NCBI RefSeq assembly: GCF_000758525.1
Contig: NZ_CP009241.1
Coordinates: 6,262,001 to 6,326,000 of the forward strand
Length of the DNA stretch: 64,000 bases
Direction of reading: 5' to 3'
Origin: Paenibacillus sp. FSL H7-0357
Lineage (GTDB): Bacteria > Bacillota > Bacilli > Paenibacillales > Paenibacillaceae
Below the pieces are notes generated by a model, which was not told the origin of the DNA, did not search any database, and saw only the letters and a program-made list of their open reading frames with translations. Shown in pieces: positions 1-16,022 of the stretch. Position numbers and translations under genes: made by a program. Position 1 is the stretch's first letter. Every line of letters starts with the position of its first letter.

Positions 1-3000
1 CTCCGTGCACGCTCTCCTGCTGGAGCTGCTGCGAACCTACCGCTCCTGCCGCCAGCTTTTCTCCACCGATGCTGCCGTCCGGCAGCAGCTCTGCACTGCG
101 GACCTCTGCGGCCAGATGCTCAAGCTTGATGATCTCGGGATTCAAGTGGCGTTCCTCCACGACTCTGTCCGCGAGATGTCTGCCATGAACACTCTCCTGC
201 TGGAGATGCTGCGAACCCACCGCGCCCTTTGCCAGCTTCGCGGAGCTGACGCTGCCGCTCGGCAGCAGGTCGGAGGTCAGAGTCTCCTCTGCAAGATGCT
301 TCAGCTTAATGCTGGCGGGGCGGATGTGCCGGCTGTCCACGGCATCAATCGCAAAATGTTCTCCATGTACGCTGCCCGGAGCCAGCTGGAAGGAACCGAT
401 GGAGTCTTCCGCCAGCTTCTCTCCGCCAATGCTGCCGTCCGGCAGCAGCTCTGCGCTGCGGACCTCTGCGGCCAGATGCTCCAGCTTGATGATCTCGGGG
501 TTCAAGTGGCGCTGTTCCACTATTCCGTCGGCAAGATGTTCTCCATATACGCTATCCGGAGCCAGTTGGAAGGAGCCGATCGAGCCTTCCGCCAGCTTTT
601 CTCCGCCGATGCTGCCATCAGGAAGCAGCTCTGCGCTGCGGACCTCTGCGGCCAGATGCTCCAGCTTGATGATCCCGGGATTCAAATGGCGCTCTTCCAC
701 CACTCCGTCCGCAAGATGTTCTCCGAATACACTCTCCTGCTGGAGATGCTTCGAACCTACCGCTCCGCCTTCCAGCTTCGCGGAACTGATGCTGCCGTCC
801 GGCAGCAGCTCGGAGGTCAGGGTCTCCTCTGCAAGATGCTTCAGCTTGATGCTGTGAGGGCGGATGTGGCGGCTGTCCACGGCTTCGACCGCAAGATGTC
901 CGCTATATACGCTGCTCGAAGCCAACTGGAAGGAGCCGATCGAGCCTTCCGCCAGCTTTTTCCCGCCGATGCTGCCGTCAGGGAGCAGTTCTGCGCTGCG
1001 GACCTCTGCCGTCAGATGCTCCAGCTTGATGATCCCGGGATTCAAGTGGCGCTCCTCCACCGCTCCGTCCGCGAGATGTTCTCCGTTCACACTTTCCGCC
1101 TGGAGATTCTCCGAACCTACCGCTCCGTCCGCCAGCTTCGCGGTGCTGACGCTGCCGTCCGGCAGCAGATCAGCGGTCAGGGTCTCCTCCGCCAGATGCT
1201 TCAGCTTGATGCTGTGAGGGCGGATGTGGCGGCTGTCCACGGCTTCGACCGCAAGATGTCCGCCATATACACTGCTCGGAGCCAATTGGAACGAACCGAT
1301 CGAGCCTTCCGCCAGCTTTTCCCCGCCGATGCTGCCGTCCGGGAGCAGCTCTGCGCTGCGGACCTCTCCGGCCAGGTGATCCAGGGTGATTTCTCCCTGC
1401 TTGATATGACGGCCTTCCAGTGAATCCTCCGCCACATGACTGGTGCCAATACTGCCTGGAGACAGATGGAGGGAAGATACGGCACCTTCGGCCAGCTTGG
1501 AACTGCTAATGCTGCCATCCTGGATTTGAATCGATGAGATAGAGCTAGGAATAATGTGCCCGTTGCCAATAGACATCGGACGAATATGTGCGCCGCCGAC
1601 ACTTCCCGGGGCAAGATGTCTGCCTTGGACAGCCGTGTCGCTGATCGACGCAGGGCTAACCGACCCTGGTGTCAAATGCTCCGCAGCCACCGATAAGGCT
1701 GCCAGCTTGGCGGAAGTAACACTGCCATCAGCCAGCTTGGTGGAGGTGACCGCCAGATCACTGAGCTTATCCGTTGAGACACTCTCCGGCGATAGCTTCA
1801 ATGAAGTAACCGCATGATCGGCCAGATGATGCGGCTGCACGGCACCTGCGGCGAGATGTACTTCCTTCACCGCGCCGGAGGCAAGCTTGTCGCCCGAGAC
1901 CGAGCCGGACTGCAGAGCCGAATTCGTCACGCTGTTCTCACCAAGATGTCTGCGTTCTATGGCGCCCGGCGCCAGATGTTCAGAATCCACTACGGCATTC
2001 TGCAGTACACGGGCGCTGACACTGGCATCGGCCAGATTTTTTTCCTCCACCGTACAGAAGGCGATATGTTCACCACTCACGGCTTCACGGGCAATTGCGT
2101 TTCCGGTGACCGCACCTGCAGCCAGCTTGCCGGCATGAATGCCCCCGTCCGCCAGCTTGGCGGCGGTAATGCTCTTCGCGCGCAGATGCTCTCCAGCCAC
2201 AGCTTCGCTTGCCAGCTGTTCTCCGGTAACTGCACCGGATGCGAGATGAGCCGTCAGCACCGACTGGCTTTGCAGCTGCTCCGATCCGACCGATTCCTTG
2301 GCTAAGTGGGACTGATCTATAGCTTCACGCTGCAGATGGAGCGAGGTCACAGCCTGCATGGCAAGCTGCGGTCCGCGTACTGCGGATTTGGCGATATGCC
2401 GTGTAGTGACCGCTTCATCCGCCAGTTTATTCGGCAGGATGCTCTGATCGGCGATTTTGGAGGAGGTGACCGCCTGCTCCACGAGCTGTACCGTCCCTAC
2501 CGCACCTTCCGCCAGCTTCACAAAAGAAATGCTGCGGTCCGCCAAATGGCGGGCAGTGATTTCTCCGTCGCCGATATGGGTGCCATTTACGCTTTCCGGA
2601 CTTAGATGCTGGCTGCGTACAGCCTTCTCCCCCAGCTGCCGCGTGCCTACTGCGGCATCCGCAAGATGTCCGCTGTCAATGCTGCCGGACTGGAGCTGCT
2701 CCTTGCCGATAAGACGGCCGGCAAGCTGCTCAGGCCCGATGGCTCCCGGCGCCAGATGTTTCGCCGTGATGACGCCTTCGCTCAAATGGCGGCCCTCAAT
2801 CACGGCATCGCCCAGTTTGGCTCCGCTGATTTCGCCGTCGGCGATTTTATCGCCGGACACCGCCTCGTCAGCCAGTTTGGAACGGTCGATACTTCCGTTC
2901 GCCAAATGTCGGCTGACAATGGTGCTGCTTAGAATTTTTTCGCCGGTTATGGTTCCATCTTCCAGCAAGTCGGCAGTAATCAGCAGCTCGCTCAAATGAC

Positions 3001-3310
3001 GGCTGGCAATGGACCGGTCGGCAATTTGTTCTCCCCCGATGATCCGGTCAGCCAGCTTCTCCGGGCCGATGCTTCCGTTCTTCAGCTTCTCGCCGCTGAT
3101 CGAATGATCCAGCAGCTTGCCGCCGTTCACACTTCCTTCCGCCAGATGTTCGCCAGTTATCGATTCGGGGGCAATCTTCGAGGACGTTATCGCCTTGTCC
3201 GCGATATTGATGCTCTGCACCGCATAATCCTGCAGCCAGGGAGTACCGATAATCCCGAATTTCAGCTTAGAGCCGTCAATGGTGCGCGGAGCAATCTTCT
3301 GGCCGGTAAC
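1..3310 (-). repeat. Tandem 30-bp coding repeat with 180/360-bp higher-order units
   Basis: Within the giant gene a 30-bp period encodes about 110 decapeptides without loss of register. In the last 1.4 kb the units are grouped: the anchor sequence ctgcgctgcggacctctg or a close variant recurs at 1351, 991, 631, 451 and 91, so spacings are 360, 360, 180 and 360 bp (12 or 6 decapeptides). Nearly identical 360-bp blocks indicate recent segmental duplication by recombination or slippage, whereas the units at 1400-3300 are more diverged. Confidence 0.9.
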
Positions 3311-3715
3311 GGCCGCATCGCACAGATCATCGGTATATACGGGCTGCAGGCGCTCTTTTTCCAGAACAGGCAGAACGGGCTCGGGCGCGTGGACAACCAC
3401 CTCCTCAATCTGGAGTGTTTCTTCTGCTGCCGGCACCTCCAGCAATTCTTTATCCGGGGCGGCAGGTACGGCAGGTACGGCAGGTACTGCAGGTACGGCA
3501 GGTTGTGCCGGCTCTGCAACAACTTCTACCGTGCCCACACCACTAACCTGCAGGGCCCGGTCTGGCGGATCCACCGTCTCGCTGACGGGTGCTTCAAATC
3601 CCCCTAGCACCCTTGGACTGCTTCCCAGCATACTCAGTTCTTTTTTATTGGGATTATCCACGTAGTAGAGTCGCTTCTTGGAACTGTGTTGTTGATTCCT
3701 TCTGGAGCTCTTCAC
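1..3715 (-). CDS. Giant decapeptide-repeat protein, N-terminal part (runs off left edge)
   Basis: The minus-strand frame stays open from a GTG at 3715-3713 to the window edge: 1238 codons with no stop, so the C-terminus lies outside. An AGGAGG-type ribosome site sits 9 bases before the GTG. Residues 1-135 are basic then low complexity, with a Pro-Ala-Val run encoded near 3461-3505. From about 3310 downward the protein is an unbroken array of ten-residue units of the form GEKLAxGSIx (Leu/Ile at position 4, Ile/Val at 9; variants SRHL, SELL, AEHL). There is no signal peptide or membrane segment in the visible part. I do not know a function. From memory, Paenibacillus has long repeat proteins named for a C-terminal WIAG tail, and this may be one, but the tail is not visible. 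The long plus-strand open frames here are mirror images of the repeat codons. Confidence 0.82.
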   Translation of the reverse strand, partial: MKSSRRNQQHSSKKRLYYVDNPNKKELSMLGSSPRVLGGFEAPVSETVDPPDRALQVSGVGTVEVVAEPAQPAVPAVPAVPAVPAAPDKELLEVPAAEETLQIEEVVVHAPEPVLPVLEKERLQPVYTDDLCDAAVTGQKIAPRTIDGSKLKFGIIGTPWLQDYAVQSINIADKAITSSKIAPESITGEHLAEGSVNGGKLLDHSISGEKLKNGSIGPEKLADRIIGGEQIADRSIASRHLSELLITADLLEDGTITGEKILSSTIVSRHLANGSIDRSKLADEAVSGDKIADGEISGAKLGDAVIEGRHLSEGVITAKHLAPGAIGPEQLAGRLIGKEQLQSGSIDSGHLADAAVGTRQLGEKAVRSQHLSPESVNGTHIGDGEITARHLADRSISFVKLAEGAVGTVQLVEQAVTSSKIADQSILPNKLADEAVTTRHIAKSAVRGPQLAMQAVTSLHLQREAIDQSHLAKESVGSEQLQSQSVLTAHLASGAVTGEQLASEAVAGEHLRAKSITAAKLADGGIHAGKLAAGAVTGNAIAREAVSGEHIAFCTVEEKNLADASVSARVLQNAVVDSEHLAPGAIERRHLGENSVTNSALQSGSVSGDKLASGAVKEVHLAAGAVQPHHLADHAVTSLKLSPESVSTDKLSDLAVTSTKLADGSVTSAKLAALSVAAEHLTPGSVSPASISDTAVQGRHLAPGSVGGAHIRPMSIGNGHIIPSSISSIQIQDGSISSSKLAEGAVSSLHLSPGSIGTSHVAEDSLEGRHIKQGEITLDHLAGEVRSAELLPDGSIGGEKLAEGSIGSFQLAPSSVYGGHLAVEAVDSRHIRPHSIKLKHLAEETLTADLLPDGSVSTAKLADGAVGSENLQAESVNGEHLADGAVEERHLNPGIIKLEHLTAEVRSAELLPDGSIGGKKLAEGSIGSFQLASSSVYSGHLAVEAVDSRHIRPHSIKLKHLAEETLTSELLPDGSISSAKLEGGAVGSKHLQQESVFGEHLADGVVEERHLNPGIIKLEHLAAEVRSAELLPDGSIGGEKLAEGSIGSFQLAPDSVYGEHLADGIVEQRHLNPEIIKLEHLAAEVRSAELLPDGSIGGEKLAEDSIGSFQLAPGSVHGEHFAIDAVDSRHIRPASIKLKHLAEETLTSDLLPSGSVSSAKLAKGAVGSQHLQQESVHGRHLADRVVEERHLNPEIIKLEHLAAEVRSAELLPDGSIGGEKLAAGAVGSQQLQQESVHG

Positions 3716-3955
3716 AAGCAGTCTCCTCCTTCCATCTGTTGTTTCTTCTAGGCATCATATGCAGTCCAGTGGGCGGATGACACCATTTGCAGTAAGGCTG
3801 CCTATAATCAATCTGCAAGTAAAGCGGCTTCGTCTATCTTTTGAAAAAGGGCTTCTGCCGCCGCGCATTCGTCCACCCTGAAGGCCACGTACAAACATAC
3901 AATGAGAACATAAGGGCTACAGCCGTAACTACAGAAGATAACGGGAGGAACGAAC

Positions 3956-5050
3956 ATGGGGCAAAAGCTCGTGGGAATACTGCTAAATGCCGCTATGCAC
4001 CGGGGCGTTCCCCGGTTAAAAACGGGACAGGAGTCGCTGGAGAGCTATGAGGAGGCGGCTGCCGCATACGGATTGACCCCCTGCTTTTTGAAGCTGTCCG
4101 ACATTGATACGGAATCCGGATACAGCATCGCTTATATCAAGGGGGTCCAGGGATATCGCAGAGCCGTAATCCCCACACCGGGTGTAATCCATAACCGGGC
4201 AATTTACAGCCAGGACAGCAGCGGAATCGAGCGGCTGCTCCGGCAGGGCCTTTTGATATACAACACATGCAACCGTTACGGGAAAGAACAGATTCACGGG
4301 CTGCTGGAACAAAACGAAGGCCTGCAGAGCTATCTGCCCGTTACAACAGCGGGGCTCCCGGGTCTGAAGGAGATGATGGACCTGTACCCCGACCTCATCC
4401 TCAAACCGTGCCGCGGCAGTATCGGCAAAGGGGTGATGCGTCTTACTCACTACAGCGGACGGAGCTGGACCTGGAGTTATCTGCCTTCACGTTCTAGCCG
4501 ATGGGTAAGCACCTTCGTGGATCAGGATGCTTTGCCAAGGATGCTTCGGGCGCGTCTCGCCGCTGAATCCTATCTGGTACAGGAACGTATCCCGCTGGCT
4601 GAAATCGGCGGACGCCCCTTCGATCTCCGGGTCACGGTGCAACGCGGCTGGGGAGGAACTTGGCAGGTGACCGGCATGTTTGCGAAGCTGGCCGCTCCTG
4701 GCGGGTTTGTATCCAATATCGCACGGGGAGGCGAAGCGCTCAGCGCCTCATATGTGCTGGATCAGGCCTTCCCGGGGGAAGCAGCAGCATACCTTCGAAT
4801 GACAGTGCAGACTCTCAGCCTCGCCATCGCACGCGAGCTGGAGCACAGTCTTCCCGGGCTTGCCGACATCGGGCTGGATATCGGCATCACCCGGAACAGA
4901 CGGATTTACTTCATTGAATGCAATGGCCGTGACCAGCGTTATGGCTTCCTCAAGGCAGGACTCAGAGGAACCTGGAAAGAAAGCTACCGCAGGCCAATGG
5001 CTTACGCCCGCTTCCTGCTCGAAGACGCCTCCCGGTATAACTCTTATTGA
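3956..5050 (+). CDS. YheC/YheD-family ATP-grasp protein (spore-coat associated type)
   Basis: A 364-residue protein of the YheC/YheD family, whose Bacillus members are ATP-grasp-fold proteins associated with the endospore coat; the reaction is not established. Visible features are the N-terminal segment GILLNAAMHRG, a nucleotide-binding-like stretch DLILKPCRGSIGKGVM near residue 142, PFDLRVTVQR near 221, and the C-terminal ATP-grasp signature DIGLDIGITRNRRIYFIECN near 303-322. The ATG at 3956 follows GGGAGG at about 8 bases. It is divergent from the decapeptide-repeat gene across 240 bp, so the two may share a sporulation context (inference). A CATACAAT sequence about 60 bases upstream resembles a sigma-E -10 element, but I could not match a -35. 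Confidence 0.85.
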   Translation: MGQKLVGILLNAAMHRGVPRLKTGQESLESYEEAAAAYGLTPCFLKLSDIDTESGYSIAYIKGVQGYRRAVIPTPGVIHNRAIYSQDSSGIERLLRQGLLIYNTCNRYGKEQIHGLLEQNEGLQSYLPVTTAGLPGLKEMMDLYPDLILKPCRGSIGKGVMRLTHYSGRSWTWSYLPSRSSRWVSTFVDQDALPRMLRARLAAESYLVQERIPLAEIGGRPFDLRVTVQRGWGGTWQVTGMFAKLAAPGGFVSNIARGGEALSASYVLDQAFPGEAAAYLRMTVQTLSLAIARELEHSLPGLADIGLDIGITRNRRIYFIECNGRDQRYGFLKAGLRGTWKESYRRPMAYARFLLEDASRYNSY

Positions 5051-5139: not shown

Positions 5140-5931
5140 ATGGTTAAACAATTGCTGCGGCTGATGACGGAACTGTCCTCGCACAGATGGCTTTCCCGGT
5201 TGATGGGGGCTTTTTCCCATAGCAGACTCAGCCGTTTTTTGATCCCGGTATTTATTAAGTCCTATCATATTCCCGCAGCTGAAGCGGAGAAGCAGTCCCG
5301 ACAATATCGTACGCTTAACGAGTTTTTCAGCCGGCGGTTGAAACCGGGGATGCGCCCTGTCGCAAGCGGGGACGATGCCGTAGCCAGTCCGGTGGATGCG
5401 ATGATTACCGCCATGGGTGAGATTCATTCCGGAACAATTTTGAATGTAAAAGGACAGGATTATGAGCTGGAAGAACTGCTTAACCACTCTCCGCACCTGG
5501 AGCTGTACAAGAAAGGCTTTTTCTTCGTGCTCTACCTGAGCCCTACGGATTATCACCGGATTCACGCGCCTCTCACCGGGCGTAAAGTCGAGAGTGATCA
5601 TATCCGCGGCCGGGCTTATCCTGTCAATGAATTCGGCATGAGACATATGAAGGGTGTGCTGAGCCGCAACGAACGTCTTATTACTTATATCGCGGGAGCG
5701 AATGGGGAAGCAGCGGTTGTAAAGGTAGGCGCAATGAATGTCAGCAGCATCCGCTACACCGATGAACAGGCCATGGAATGGCAAATCGGCGATGATCTGG
5801 CTTATTTTGAATTCGGCTCAACCGTAGTACTGCTGCTGGAGAGCGGCACCTTTACCCCAAGGGCCGGGCTGACAAGCGAGACCAAGGTCAAGATGGGAGA
5901 ACTGCTGGGAACCTTGCAGCGTCATCTTTAA
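5140..5931 (+). CDS. psd: Phosphatidylserine decarboxylase proenzyme
   Basis: Converts phosphatidylserine to phosphatidylethanolamine at the membrane, using a pyruvoyl group made by self-cleavage. The 263-residue length equals the usual short bacterial form. The cleavage motif FGST is at G226-S227, which would split the proenzyme into a large beta and a small alpha chain. The conserved PVDAMI (catalytic Asp), TDYHRIHAP (His) and PVNEFGMRHM segments are present. I chose the ATG at 5140 because GGAAGGGAG ends 6 bases before it; a TTG at 5110 and an ATG at 5134 are in frame but overlap or precede the ribosome site. No pssA neighbour is present in the window. Confidence 0.93.
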   Translation: MVKQLLRLMTELSSHRWLSRLMGAFSHSRLSRFLIPVFIKSYHIPAAEAEKQSRQYRTLNEFFSRRLKPGMRPVASGDDAVASPVDAMITAMGEIHSGTILNVKGQDYELEELLNHSPHLELYKKGFFFVLYLSPTDYHRIHAPLTGRKVESDHIRGRAYPVNEFGMRHMKGVLSRNERLITYIAGANGEAAVVKVGAMNVSSIRYTDEQAMEWQIGDDLAYFEFGSTVVLLLESGTFTPRAGLTSETKVKMGELLGTLQRHL

Positions 5932-8283: not shown

Positions 8284-9033
8284 CTACTCCGTTACCTTGC
8301 TCTGGTTAGCCACCTCACGGGCTTTGGCCTGCACCTCTTCGGGCACGCCGAGATAGAAGCGGCTGATCGGCTTCACATCGTCATCCAGCTTATAGACCAG
8401 CGGAACACCGGTCGGAACATTAAGGTCGAGCAGCGCTGTCTCGTCAATGTCCTCCATAAATTTGATCAGCGCCCGCAGGGTGTTGCCATGTGCCGAGATC
8501 AGCACCCGCTCTTTCTTCCGGATCAGCGGCACAATCCGCTTGCCCCAGAAATCGCCGACGCGGTGAACGGTATCCTCCAGGCTCTCGCCGCGCGGGATAT
8601 CCCCGGAGCGCACCTCCTTGTAGCGGATATCGTTTCTGGCATAACGCGGGTCATCCGGCTCCAGCAGCGGCGGACGGACCGACAGGCTGCGCCGCCAGAT
8701 ATGAAGCTGCTCTTCACCATATTTCACCGCAGTCTCACTCTTGCTCAGCCCCTGCAGCGCACCATAATGGCGCTCATTCAGCTTCCAGGATTTCTGTACG
8801 GGAATCCACAGCAGATCCATCTCTTCCAGCACATAATTAAGTGTCTTGATCGAACGTTTCAGTACAGAAGCGAAGGCTAGATCGAACGTGTAGCCTGCTT
8901 CTTTTAACAGCTTCCCGGCCGCTTTGGCCTCTTCTATTCCCTTTTCCGTCAGATCGGGATCGCTCCAGCCTGTGAATAAGTTCTGACGGTTGTACTCGCT
9001 TTCCCCATGCCGTATCAATACGATTTCATACAT
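8284..9033 (-). CDS. gpmA: 2,3-bisphosphoglycerate-dependent phosphoglycerate mutase
   Basis: Glycolytic and gluconeogenic enzyme that interconverts 3- and 2-phosphoglycerate in the cytoplasm. The phospho-accepting motif LIRHGES gives catalytic His9, the second active-site His182 lies in SAHGNTLRA, and the family segment ENxxGWxD appears as LFTGWSDPDLT. At 249 residues it has the normal length for the cofactor-dependent family. The ATG at 9033 was chosen because GGAAGGAG precedes it by 7-8 bases; an in-frame upstream ATG at 9069 would add twelve non-conserved residues and swallow this ribosome site. It is monocistronic; upstream lie 530 bases without another gene. Confidence 0.93.
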   Translation of the reverse strand: MYEIVLIRHGESEYNRQNLFTGWSDPDLTEKGIEEAKAAGKLLKEAGYTFDLAFASVLKRSIKTLNYVLEEMDLLWIPVQKSWKLNERHYGALQGLSKSETAVKYGEEQLHIWRRSLSVRPPLLEPDDPRYARNDIRYKEVRSGDIPRGESLEDTVHRVGDFWGKRIVPLIRKKERVLISAHGNTLRALIKFMEDIDETALLDLNVPTGVPLVYKLDDDVKPISRFYLGVPEEVQAKAREVANQSKVTE

Positions 9034-14804: not shown

Positions 14805-16022
14805 TTAGAAATCCTCATCCGCCGCGGCTTCTTTGCGCTTCAAGTATTCCTTGAACACGTAGGCCAATAGCGCTCCGGCAAGGAAGGTGCCGAGAACAGG
14901 CAGCGGACGTTCACCCGCTGTGGCCAGAAATGGCAGGCCGGTCAGCAAGGCCAGCAGCAAAAGGGCGCGGAAGATGAACTGGTTCGTGCTTTCACCTTTG
15001 CTGCCCTCTGGCAGAGGATACACCGACAGCCAGAACGACTCGCTATGCAGCTTGCGCAAAGCCGACAGCTGAATGCCCATGATGAACAGGAAGAACAAGT
15101 AAATGCCGCTTCCCACATAGCTGCCGCGATTCCACCAGACCAGCAGCAACGCCAGAACAGCGATCCGCATCACAATGGCGAAGACATCGCCCCGGGCAAA
15201 GCTTTTGGTCAGCAGGAAGCGGTAAGCAGCGTTACTCCGCCATGCGATACCGCTCCCCCAGCGTGACAGGTAACGCCGGGCGTATACCCGCTGCTCACGT
15301 CCCGGCACATCCACGAACCAGCCGAGAATCATCAAGGCCCTCGACCCCTGGTTCTTCTCCATGGCAATCAGACGCTCCCAGGGAACGGAATGCCGTCCGG
15401 GAACAGAACATGCAGCCAAATATGCCGCCGCCAGGATCAATATGAAGATCAGGGCCCGGAGAGACGGCTGCCACAGCCATGCCGCAATCATTAATCCGCC
15501 TACTGCCCAGCGCAGCAGGTTGTAGGCCACTGCGGCCGGGCGGGATATCATTGCGGTTTCCCGCCATAGCCCGTAGCTGGACAGCAATTTCACCAGAATC
15601 AGAATGAGAACGGTAGCGAACAGACTCCTAGGCGATTCATCCGTACGTATGTACAAGGGCCAGACGGTGATCAGTACAAACAGCAGCCGCACAATTTTCC
15701 ACACATTTCCGCTTACCCAGCTACGGGCAAAATATTCCTTCATCCGGTGTCCCTGCGGAAGCAGAAATATAGTATCCGGACTCTGCAGATACGTCCGGAA
15801 GCTGCTGTGCACCGCCGCAGGCAGCAGCAGGACCAGCATAACCCAGCGGATCGGAATACCTGACGGAGTGTCCCGAAGCAGCGAAGTATACCAGGCCGAG
15901 AAGACAATCAGCAGCAGAAGCAAGAGCATCGCTACACCGCTCTTAATGACATACCCCACATAAGGCAGCATGCTTCCCATGAACCGGCTGCGCCGCTGCC
16001 GGCGCAGCTCCTTTAAATCCAT
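14805..16022 (-). CDS. ecsB: ABC transporter permease EcsB
   Basis: A 405-residue integral membrane protein with many hydrophobic segments and the EcsB-type arrangement, including PDTIFLLPQGHRMKEY near residue 82 and the short C-terminal charged tail. In Bacillus, EcsAB affects protein secretion, competence and membrane proteolysis; the transported substrate is not certain. It starts 1 base after the ecsA stop with GGGAGGG ahead, so the two are co-translated. It is the last gene of a helicase-ecsA-ecsB run. Confidence 0.88.
   Translation of the reverse strand: MDLKELRRQRRSRFMGSMLPYVGYVIKSGVAMLLLLLLIVFSAWYTSLLRDTPSGIPIRWVMLVLLLPAAVHSSFRTYLQSPDTIFLLPQGHRMKEYFARSWVSGNVWKIVRLLFVLITVWPLYIRTDESPRSLFATVLILILVKLLSSYGLWRETAMISRPAAVAYNLLRWAVGGLMIAAWLWQPSLRALIFILILAAAYLAACSVPGRHSVPWERLIAMEKNQGSRALMILGWFVDVPGREQRVYARRYLSRWGSGIAWRSNAAYRFLLTKSFARGDVFAIVMRIAVLALLLVWWNRGSYVGSGIYLFFLFIMGIQLSALRKLHSESFWLSVYPLPEGSKGESTNQFIFRALLLLALLTGLPFLATAGERPLPVLGTFLAGALLAYVFKEYLKRKEAAADEDF

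Follow-up and report, generated by a model that had tools for sequence, protein, structure and literature searches.

What kind of protein is made from the giant repeat gene at one edge of a 64,000 nucleotide stretch of Paenibacillus sp. FSL H7-0357 DNA? We refer to this whole stretch as the window (contig NZ_CP009241.1, positions 6,262,001 to 6,326,000); the genome is a single contig of 7.69 Mb. A first-pass annotation, made from the window alone, placed the end of the gene outside it. Reading past position 1, we followed the gene for another 2,636 bases to a stop at contig position 6259365, giving a product of 2116 amino acids. This array protein comprises an N-terminus of 126 residues, an in-register stalk of 189 decapeptides, of phage-fibre type, and a WIAG-tail knob with a predicted H-lectin-type fold. 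Its gene is linked to glycosyltransferase and YheC/D genes and, in our sample, is restricted to genomes bearing spoIVA. We suggest that the gene encodes a spore-surface hair, and put the probability at roughly 0.6.

An uninterrupted decapeptide array

The 5' 3.7 kb of the gene occupy positions 1..3715 of the window, on the minus strand. The frame opens with a GTG codon at position 3715, directly preceded by a GGAGG-type ribosome site, and is uninterrupted to the left edge. Across the genus, complete WIAG-array genes span about 3 to 10 kb. The first 126 residues (3338..3715, minus strand) form a short basic leader, then a Val/Pro/Glu/Ala-rich linker. When the starts of relatives were compared, a KKRLYYVDNPN-type motif in the leader was present in many. 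The region is hydrophilic and, judged by eye without a predictor, residues 1-126 contain no visible signal-like or membrane-like stretch, as the first-pass annotation had stated. From its sequence, the leader is a possible anchor.

The array follows (1..3337 in the window, minus strand). A dynamic-programming parse resolved residues 127-2016 into 189 contiguous decapeptides with zero indels. The original estimate of about 110 units was sound for the window, where 111 are complete. Position 5 is Leu or Ile in 188 of 190 units, and position 10 is Val or Ile in 167 (the parse counts one unit beyond the array). Position 3 is mostly E, R, D, A or K, and position 8 mostly G or E. The perfect ten-residue periodicity described initially was confirmed; the hydrophobic pattern has a period-5 power of 331, compared with a maximum of 5.3 among 200 shuffles.

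The first 18 units align without gaps across 31 sequences. In relatives, array start and knob lie 51-309 units apart, measured between anchors. Despite these differing lengths, 41 of 69 distinct arrays share one remainder, modulo 10, for this distance (42 of 70 if another anchor is used). The others are off register, at least some of them owing to a non-repeat stretch near the C-terminus. The gene contains internal repeats as long as 1.39 kb, offset by 720, 1440 and 2520 bases and 71-81 per cent identical. Hence, the array grew by duplication. Ratios of non-synonymous to synonymous change (pN/pS), determined against relatives, range from 0.11 to 0.18 in 7 comparisons of the array start and from 0.10 to 0.14 in 3 comparisons of the knob. 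By this measure, the gene is under purifying selection. Note that a 473-residue open frame lies antisense to the array (window 2-1423, plus strand). This is probably a by-product of repeat codon usage and does not indicate a gene.

Phage-fibre resemblance of stalk and knob

The stalk strongly matches tail-fibre families of PHROG (phrog_892, 2.2e-229). Similar repeats are encoded in 61 of 50,697 phage records; 24 are named as cyanophage, or as Synechococcus/Prochlorococcus phage, and 8 as Lactobacillus phage. The gp28 fibre of cyanophage P-SCSP1u gave a weak match to the repeat profile (E 0.0073). Gp28 is reported to be trimeric, and it is its N-termini that are described as clearly resolved (PMC10575957). 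Pfam hits inside the repeats, to Surfac_D-trimer and DUF6528 in the array and to WI12 in a relative, differ between relatives and were rejected as low-complexity chance matches.

At the opposite end, residues 2025-2104 match the full WIAG-tail domain model (NF012201, positions 1-80) with 98 bits, against a cut-off of 33. On this score, the array protein is a member of the family. For the predicted model of the knob, the best matches have the H-lectin fold and are H-type lectins, discoidins, and phage or pyocin fibre tips. Phage-fibre tips are also matched by profile. Pfam H_lectin is absent among the Pfam matches listed for 48 knobs. The C-terminal 144 residues have no match in the 50,697 phage records, and neither the WIAG-tail profile nor a phage-type knob (L180) has a relative in viral contigs. 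A protein search with L180 returned a single near-identical protein; the same kind of search gave no hit for the final 157 residues of the long protein. Stalk and WIAG knob were not found together within one phage protein. In the open-licence literature searched, the WIAG-tail family appears in name only, with fold, partner genes and role undescribed, and no description of the array protein was found.

Restriction to spoIVA-bearing genomes

The WIAG-array gene is nearly universal in the genus, being carried by 97 of the 100 genomes examined. We examined its relationship with spoIVA in a class sample of 398 genomes, where WIAG-tail was detected in 109 (108 over cut-off) and spoIVA in 269 (265 over cut-off). 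All 109 WIAG-tail genomes fall within the 269, and none of the 129 genomes lacking spoIVA has the domain (Fisher p 4e-23, with shared ancestry ignored). In an order sample, 269 of 296 genomes have WIAG-tail. Among the 27 that do not, 20 were listed, and 14 of these come from a single genus (g3) in the same family as the window. All 14 lack spoIVA. Since spoIVA is missing, this genus presumably forms no spores. A search of another 13 genomes, of which 11 lie outside the class, detected no WIAG-tail; this small sample does not establish absence outside Bacilli.

YheC/D and sugar genes beside the array gene

Neighbours were compared in named loci, the best 80 of 105 found, several of which are on contigs that end too early to judge. 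All are from Paenibacillus or Fontibacillus (79 loci) except one labelled Bacillus sp. FJAT-27264. The YheC/D-type ATP-grasp gene, divergent from the array gene (3956..5050, plus strand), was correctly recognised at the outset (PF14398, 208.6 bits against a cut-off of 26.8). Its absence from relatives had been raised as a possibility that would break the sporulation link; it is instead matched in 53 of the 80 loci. Downstream of the array gene, on the same strand, are three GT2 glycosyltransferase genes and an RmlA-like nucleotidyltransferase gene (PF00483; best NCBIfam rmlA, 209.9 bits, under the cut-off of 360.65). Glycosyltransferase matches were found downstream in 62 of the 80 loci, a count in which two of the three, being alike, cross-match, and the RmlA-like gene in 59. 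Of 20 genus loci, 16 retain both glycosyltransferases together with the divergent YheC/D gene. No neighbour identified around the array gene is a phage gene. The psd gene, for phosphatidylserine decarboxylase (5146..5931, plus strand; TIGR00163, 193.2 bits against 111.75), is matched in 52 of the 80 loci and is probably a syntenic housekeeping neighbour, outside the system.

The association extends to distant Bacilli. Here, YheC/D matches occur in 9 of 20 loci of 16-19 kb each, with four in tandem in six of these, and an RmlA-like match occurs in 6 of 20. Two to four tandem YheC/D matches stand beside the WIAG-array gene in L167, L170-L173, L175, L176 and L178. Genomes have 6-31 YheC/D-type genes (14 genomes counted), many of them clustered, so chance proximity to the WIAG gene seems unlikely. 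In Bacillus subtilis, yheC and yheD are reported to belong to the sigma-E regulon, with expression increased by SpoIIID (PMC517825).

Some further features of these regions can be recorded. In L005 (7917-8897), small open frames separate the RmlA-like gene from a GNAT-like gene; one of them, at 8589-8897, also has a relative in L083, at 14833-15246. In two loci (L108:10484-12262 and L134:10476-12055), a stretch of ~2.5 kb splits the WIAG gene from the glycosyltransferases and holds an opposite-strand open frame resembling a secreted protein. Similar gaps occur in several of the 80 loci. A further YheC/D-type match, containing a single in-frame TAA, lies 2.5 kb beyond the right end of the window (contig 6328477-6329145).

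A second, short WIAG gene is present in 14 of the 100 genus genomes, and one more genome has the short gene alone. The 15 short-paralogue loci (L057-L071, about 6-7.5 kb each) match YheC/D in 15, GT_C in 9 and RmlA in 8 cases. A further glycosyltransferase gene was found in four of the five loci for which frames were read; the single one tested belongs to the GT4 type. Among genomes with both copies, there are two in which the long copy (L055, L056) has no cassette neighbours and the short copy has YheC/D; the short copy in G065 sits with the full cassette. With four or five repeats and a knob, the short paralogue may be a minimal working hair.

Candidate promoter elements

Upstream of the array gene is a conserved box, GTGTCA-N16-CATATGAT (3754..3783, minus strand). 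In the general form GTGWCA-N16-CATANNNT, this is found in all 40 intergenic regions compared, 35-41 bases 5' of the start. Note that these are 39 loci and the window, with some strains present twice; only loci with a clear N-terminal match were considered, and three of 42 candidates were dropped because of spacing or order. We take the CATA element to resemble the -10 of mother-cell sigma factors. The box is a probable promoter of the array gene, of unproven sigma class. On the plus strand, upstream of the YheC/D gene, is the -10-like element CATACAAT (3896..3903). An exact copy is present in 23 of 40 relatives, and CATANNNT is found in 37 of 40. Presumably, CATACAAT is a sigma-E-like -10, and no matching -35 was seen for it upstream of the YheC/D gene. 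Also upstream of that gene, ATTCGTCC (window 3867-3874) is kept in 34 of 40 relatives. Its reverse complement, GGACGAAT, is a candidate that we take to resemble a SpoIIID-type site.

A model for the array protein and its alternatives

We infer that the array protein is exposed on the surface, forms trimers, is glycosylated and binds a ligand. Briefly, the mother cell would synthesise the protein as sporulation proceeds. Its chains would join in threes via the C-terminal knob, and the decapeptides would wrap into a three-stranded stalk of some hundreds of nm (about 170-620 nm, assuming a rise of 0.9-3.3 Å per residue). The linked GT2 enzymes might attach sugars to Ser and Thr residues of the stalk, using a nucleotide sugar supplied by the RmlA-like enzyme. 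Docking to the coat or exosporium would be through the N-terminal leader, possibly in dependence on the YheC/D protein, and the knob would bind glycans or other spores. A broader proposal, to which we give a little less than an even chance, is that Paenibacillus and many other spore-forming Bacilli have a distinct class of spore appendage. This would be a giant trimeric glycoprotein hair, put together from phage tail-fibre modules, namely the decapeptide stalk and a receptor-binding knob of H-lectin fold, that replaces the collagen-type BclA hairs of the Bacillus cereus group and has its own glycosylation cassette and YheC/D partner. If true, a role is provided for a gene occupying several kb in almost all genomes of the genus, and the WIAG-tail domain gains both fold and role. 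Spore hairs would then have arisen on more than one occasion, with collagen as the material in one group and phage-fibre parts in another. The role of YheC/D ATP-grasp proteins also becomes testable, since even in distant Bacilli their genes accompany a defined candidate partner.

Several observations weigh against a spore-surface hair built from phage-fibre parts. Modelling of array blocks, proposed in the first-pass annotation, gave no confident fold; AlphaFold2 of 18 repeats was poor, with a predicted local distance difference test (pLDDT) score of 55 and a predicted template modelling (pTM) score of 0.27. Sequence matches were mixed. Designed solenoids and IcmE/DotG repeats match the stalk sequence as well as phage proteins do. 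By repeat profile, designed solenoids (3.2e-7), orf16 of 9eg4 (6.4e-5) and IcmE/DotG (8.4e-5) are all better than gp28, so the solved structures point to no single stalk fold. For the knob, Gp53-like_C matches just 6 of 48 (best 2e-4; two rows examined were under cut-off), and no WIAG gene in 61 genus genomes. GSPE_N1E, an unrelated family, performs much the same, with matches to 3 of 48 (best 7e-4). Five phage fibres with such repeats (cr271_1 and L190-L193), read to the end, have other C-termini; the sequence of a sixth (L189) stops short of its C-terminus. We considered capture of a whole fibre like that of cr271_1, found in the stalk search and far down the fold list. Since the C-termini differ, whole-fibre capture is not claimed. 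Turning to sporulation, 160 of the 269 spoIVA-bearing Bacilli, and six well-assembled genomes of the order with spoIVA, lack WIAG-tail. Hence, the gene is not essential for sporulation. Three genus drafts without WIAG-tail carry spoIVA as well, so that, with the six, loss in sporulating species is seen to occur. There is no glycosyltransferase match in 20 kb around 4 of 20 long genus copies. Finally, the upstream box fails as a regulon marker; with 5 genome matches, compared to 7 for a reversed control, it defines no regulon in the window's genome.

How else might these data be explained? The protein could be an internal scaffold of the coat or interspace, made in the mother cell but not exposed, with a knob that trimerises and has no external ligand. 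Sporulation co-occurrence and the lack of a visible secretion signal fit this equally well, and the YheC/D link points to the coat, not specifically the surface. Conversely, the linked sugar genes and lectin-type tip better suit an exposed glycoprotein, and the range of stalk lengths, natural for a hair, is odd for a scaffold. We think a hidden scaffold unlikely, though credible. Quite unlikely, in our judgement, is a single-chain beta-solenoid of the pentapeptide-repeat kind, serving as scaffold or mimic. The period-5 pattern suggests such a fold, as do matches to designed beta-solenoid protein beta1 and its variants (E 3.2e-7 by profile and 9e-5 by sequence). However, pentapeptide solenoids need a small residue two before each core Leu or Val (i-2), pointing inward, and at these places the array mostly has E, R or D (position 3) and G or E (position 8). 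Neither the AlphaFold2 result nor the C-terminal fold, typical of trimeric fibres and lectins, favours a solenoid. Hence, where the first-pass annotation offered solenoid or fibre, we favour fibre. Similarly, the link to spores that it raised is supported by the spoIVA and YheC/D associations, and there is no evidence for the template role that it named alongside.

An adhesin of growing cells, found in spore formers by coincidence, would account for the lectin fold. This is very unlikely given the confinement of WIAG-tail to spoIVA-bearing genomes, its absence from all 14 listed g3 genomes, the lack of a visible export signal, and the YheC/D partner. Both kinds of module are known from phage fibres, as a prophage tail fibre or remnant would require. 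Yet the gene is near universal in the genus, has conserved chromosomal neighbours, none identified as phage, has a C-terminus unmatched in phage records and viral contigs, and is under purifying selection. We regard a prophage origin of this kind as highly improbable. Lastly, growth by duplication is what a decaying or meaningless repeat expansion might show, and decay was a fallback of the first-pass annotation. It is refuted by 2116 intact codons with no indel, by pN/pS values of 0.10-0.18 in array start and knob, and by the register kept in 41 of 69 relatives, leaving next to no chance that it is right.

Comparison with known systems

The spore-surface hair we propose is best compared to BclA and BclA-like exosporium hairs of the B. 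cereus group (described in part in PMC11952670). Shared features are a short N-terminal leader, a repeat stalk of variable length, a C-terminal beta domain, linked sugar genes, and presence in spore formers only. By contrast, the array protein has a decapeptide repeat in place of collagen G-X-Y triplets, with no collagen family among its matches. No C1q/TNF-type BclA C-terminal Pfam match was found in the array protein, or among those listed for 48 knobs, and its stalk and tip are instead of phage-fibre type. The best-supported analogy is thus a protein that would work like BclA in plan, yet fails the collagen and C1q features.

Phage tail fibres share the decapeptide stalk by sequence (phrog_892 and cyanophage fibres). 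The knob, by predicted fold and profile, is like the tips of R-pyocin, AP22 gp53, LKA1 and the phi297 tailspike. Unlike these, the array gene is a chromosomal host gene of spore formers with a conserved neighbourhood. Furthermore, its 189 in-register repeats compare with runs of at most 17 in the five phage fibres, as measured with a simpler pattern. H-type lectins, such as Helix pomatia agglutinin, discoidins and SLL-2, have the fold predicted for the knob, for which sugar binding is putative. Fibres are also described on spores of the same bacterial family; those of a Paenibacillus isolate are reported to be F-ENA-2a-like, with no tip fibrillum (PMC11952670). F-ENA fibres (DUF4183) are made of small stacking subunits, whereas the array protein has no DUF4183 match. 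On this basis, the two would be different structures.
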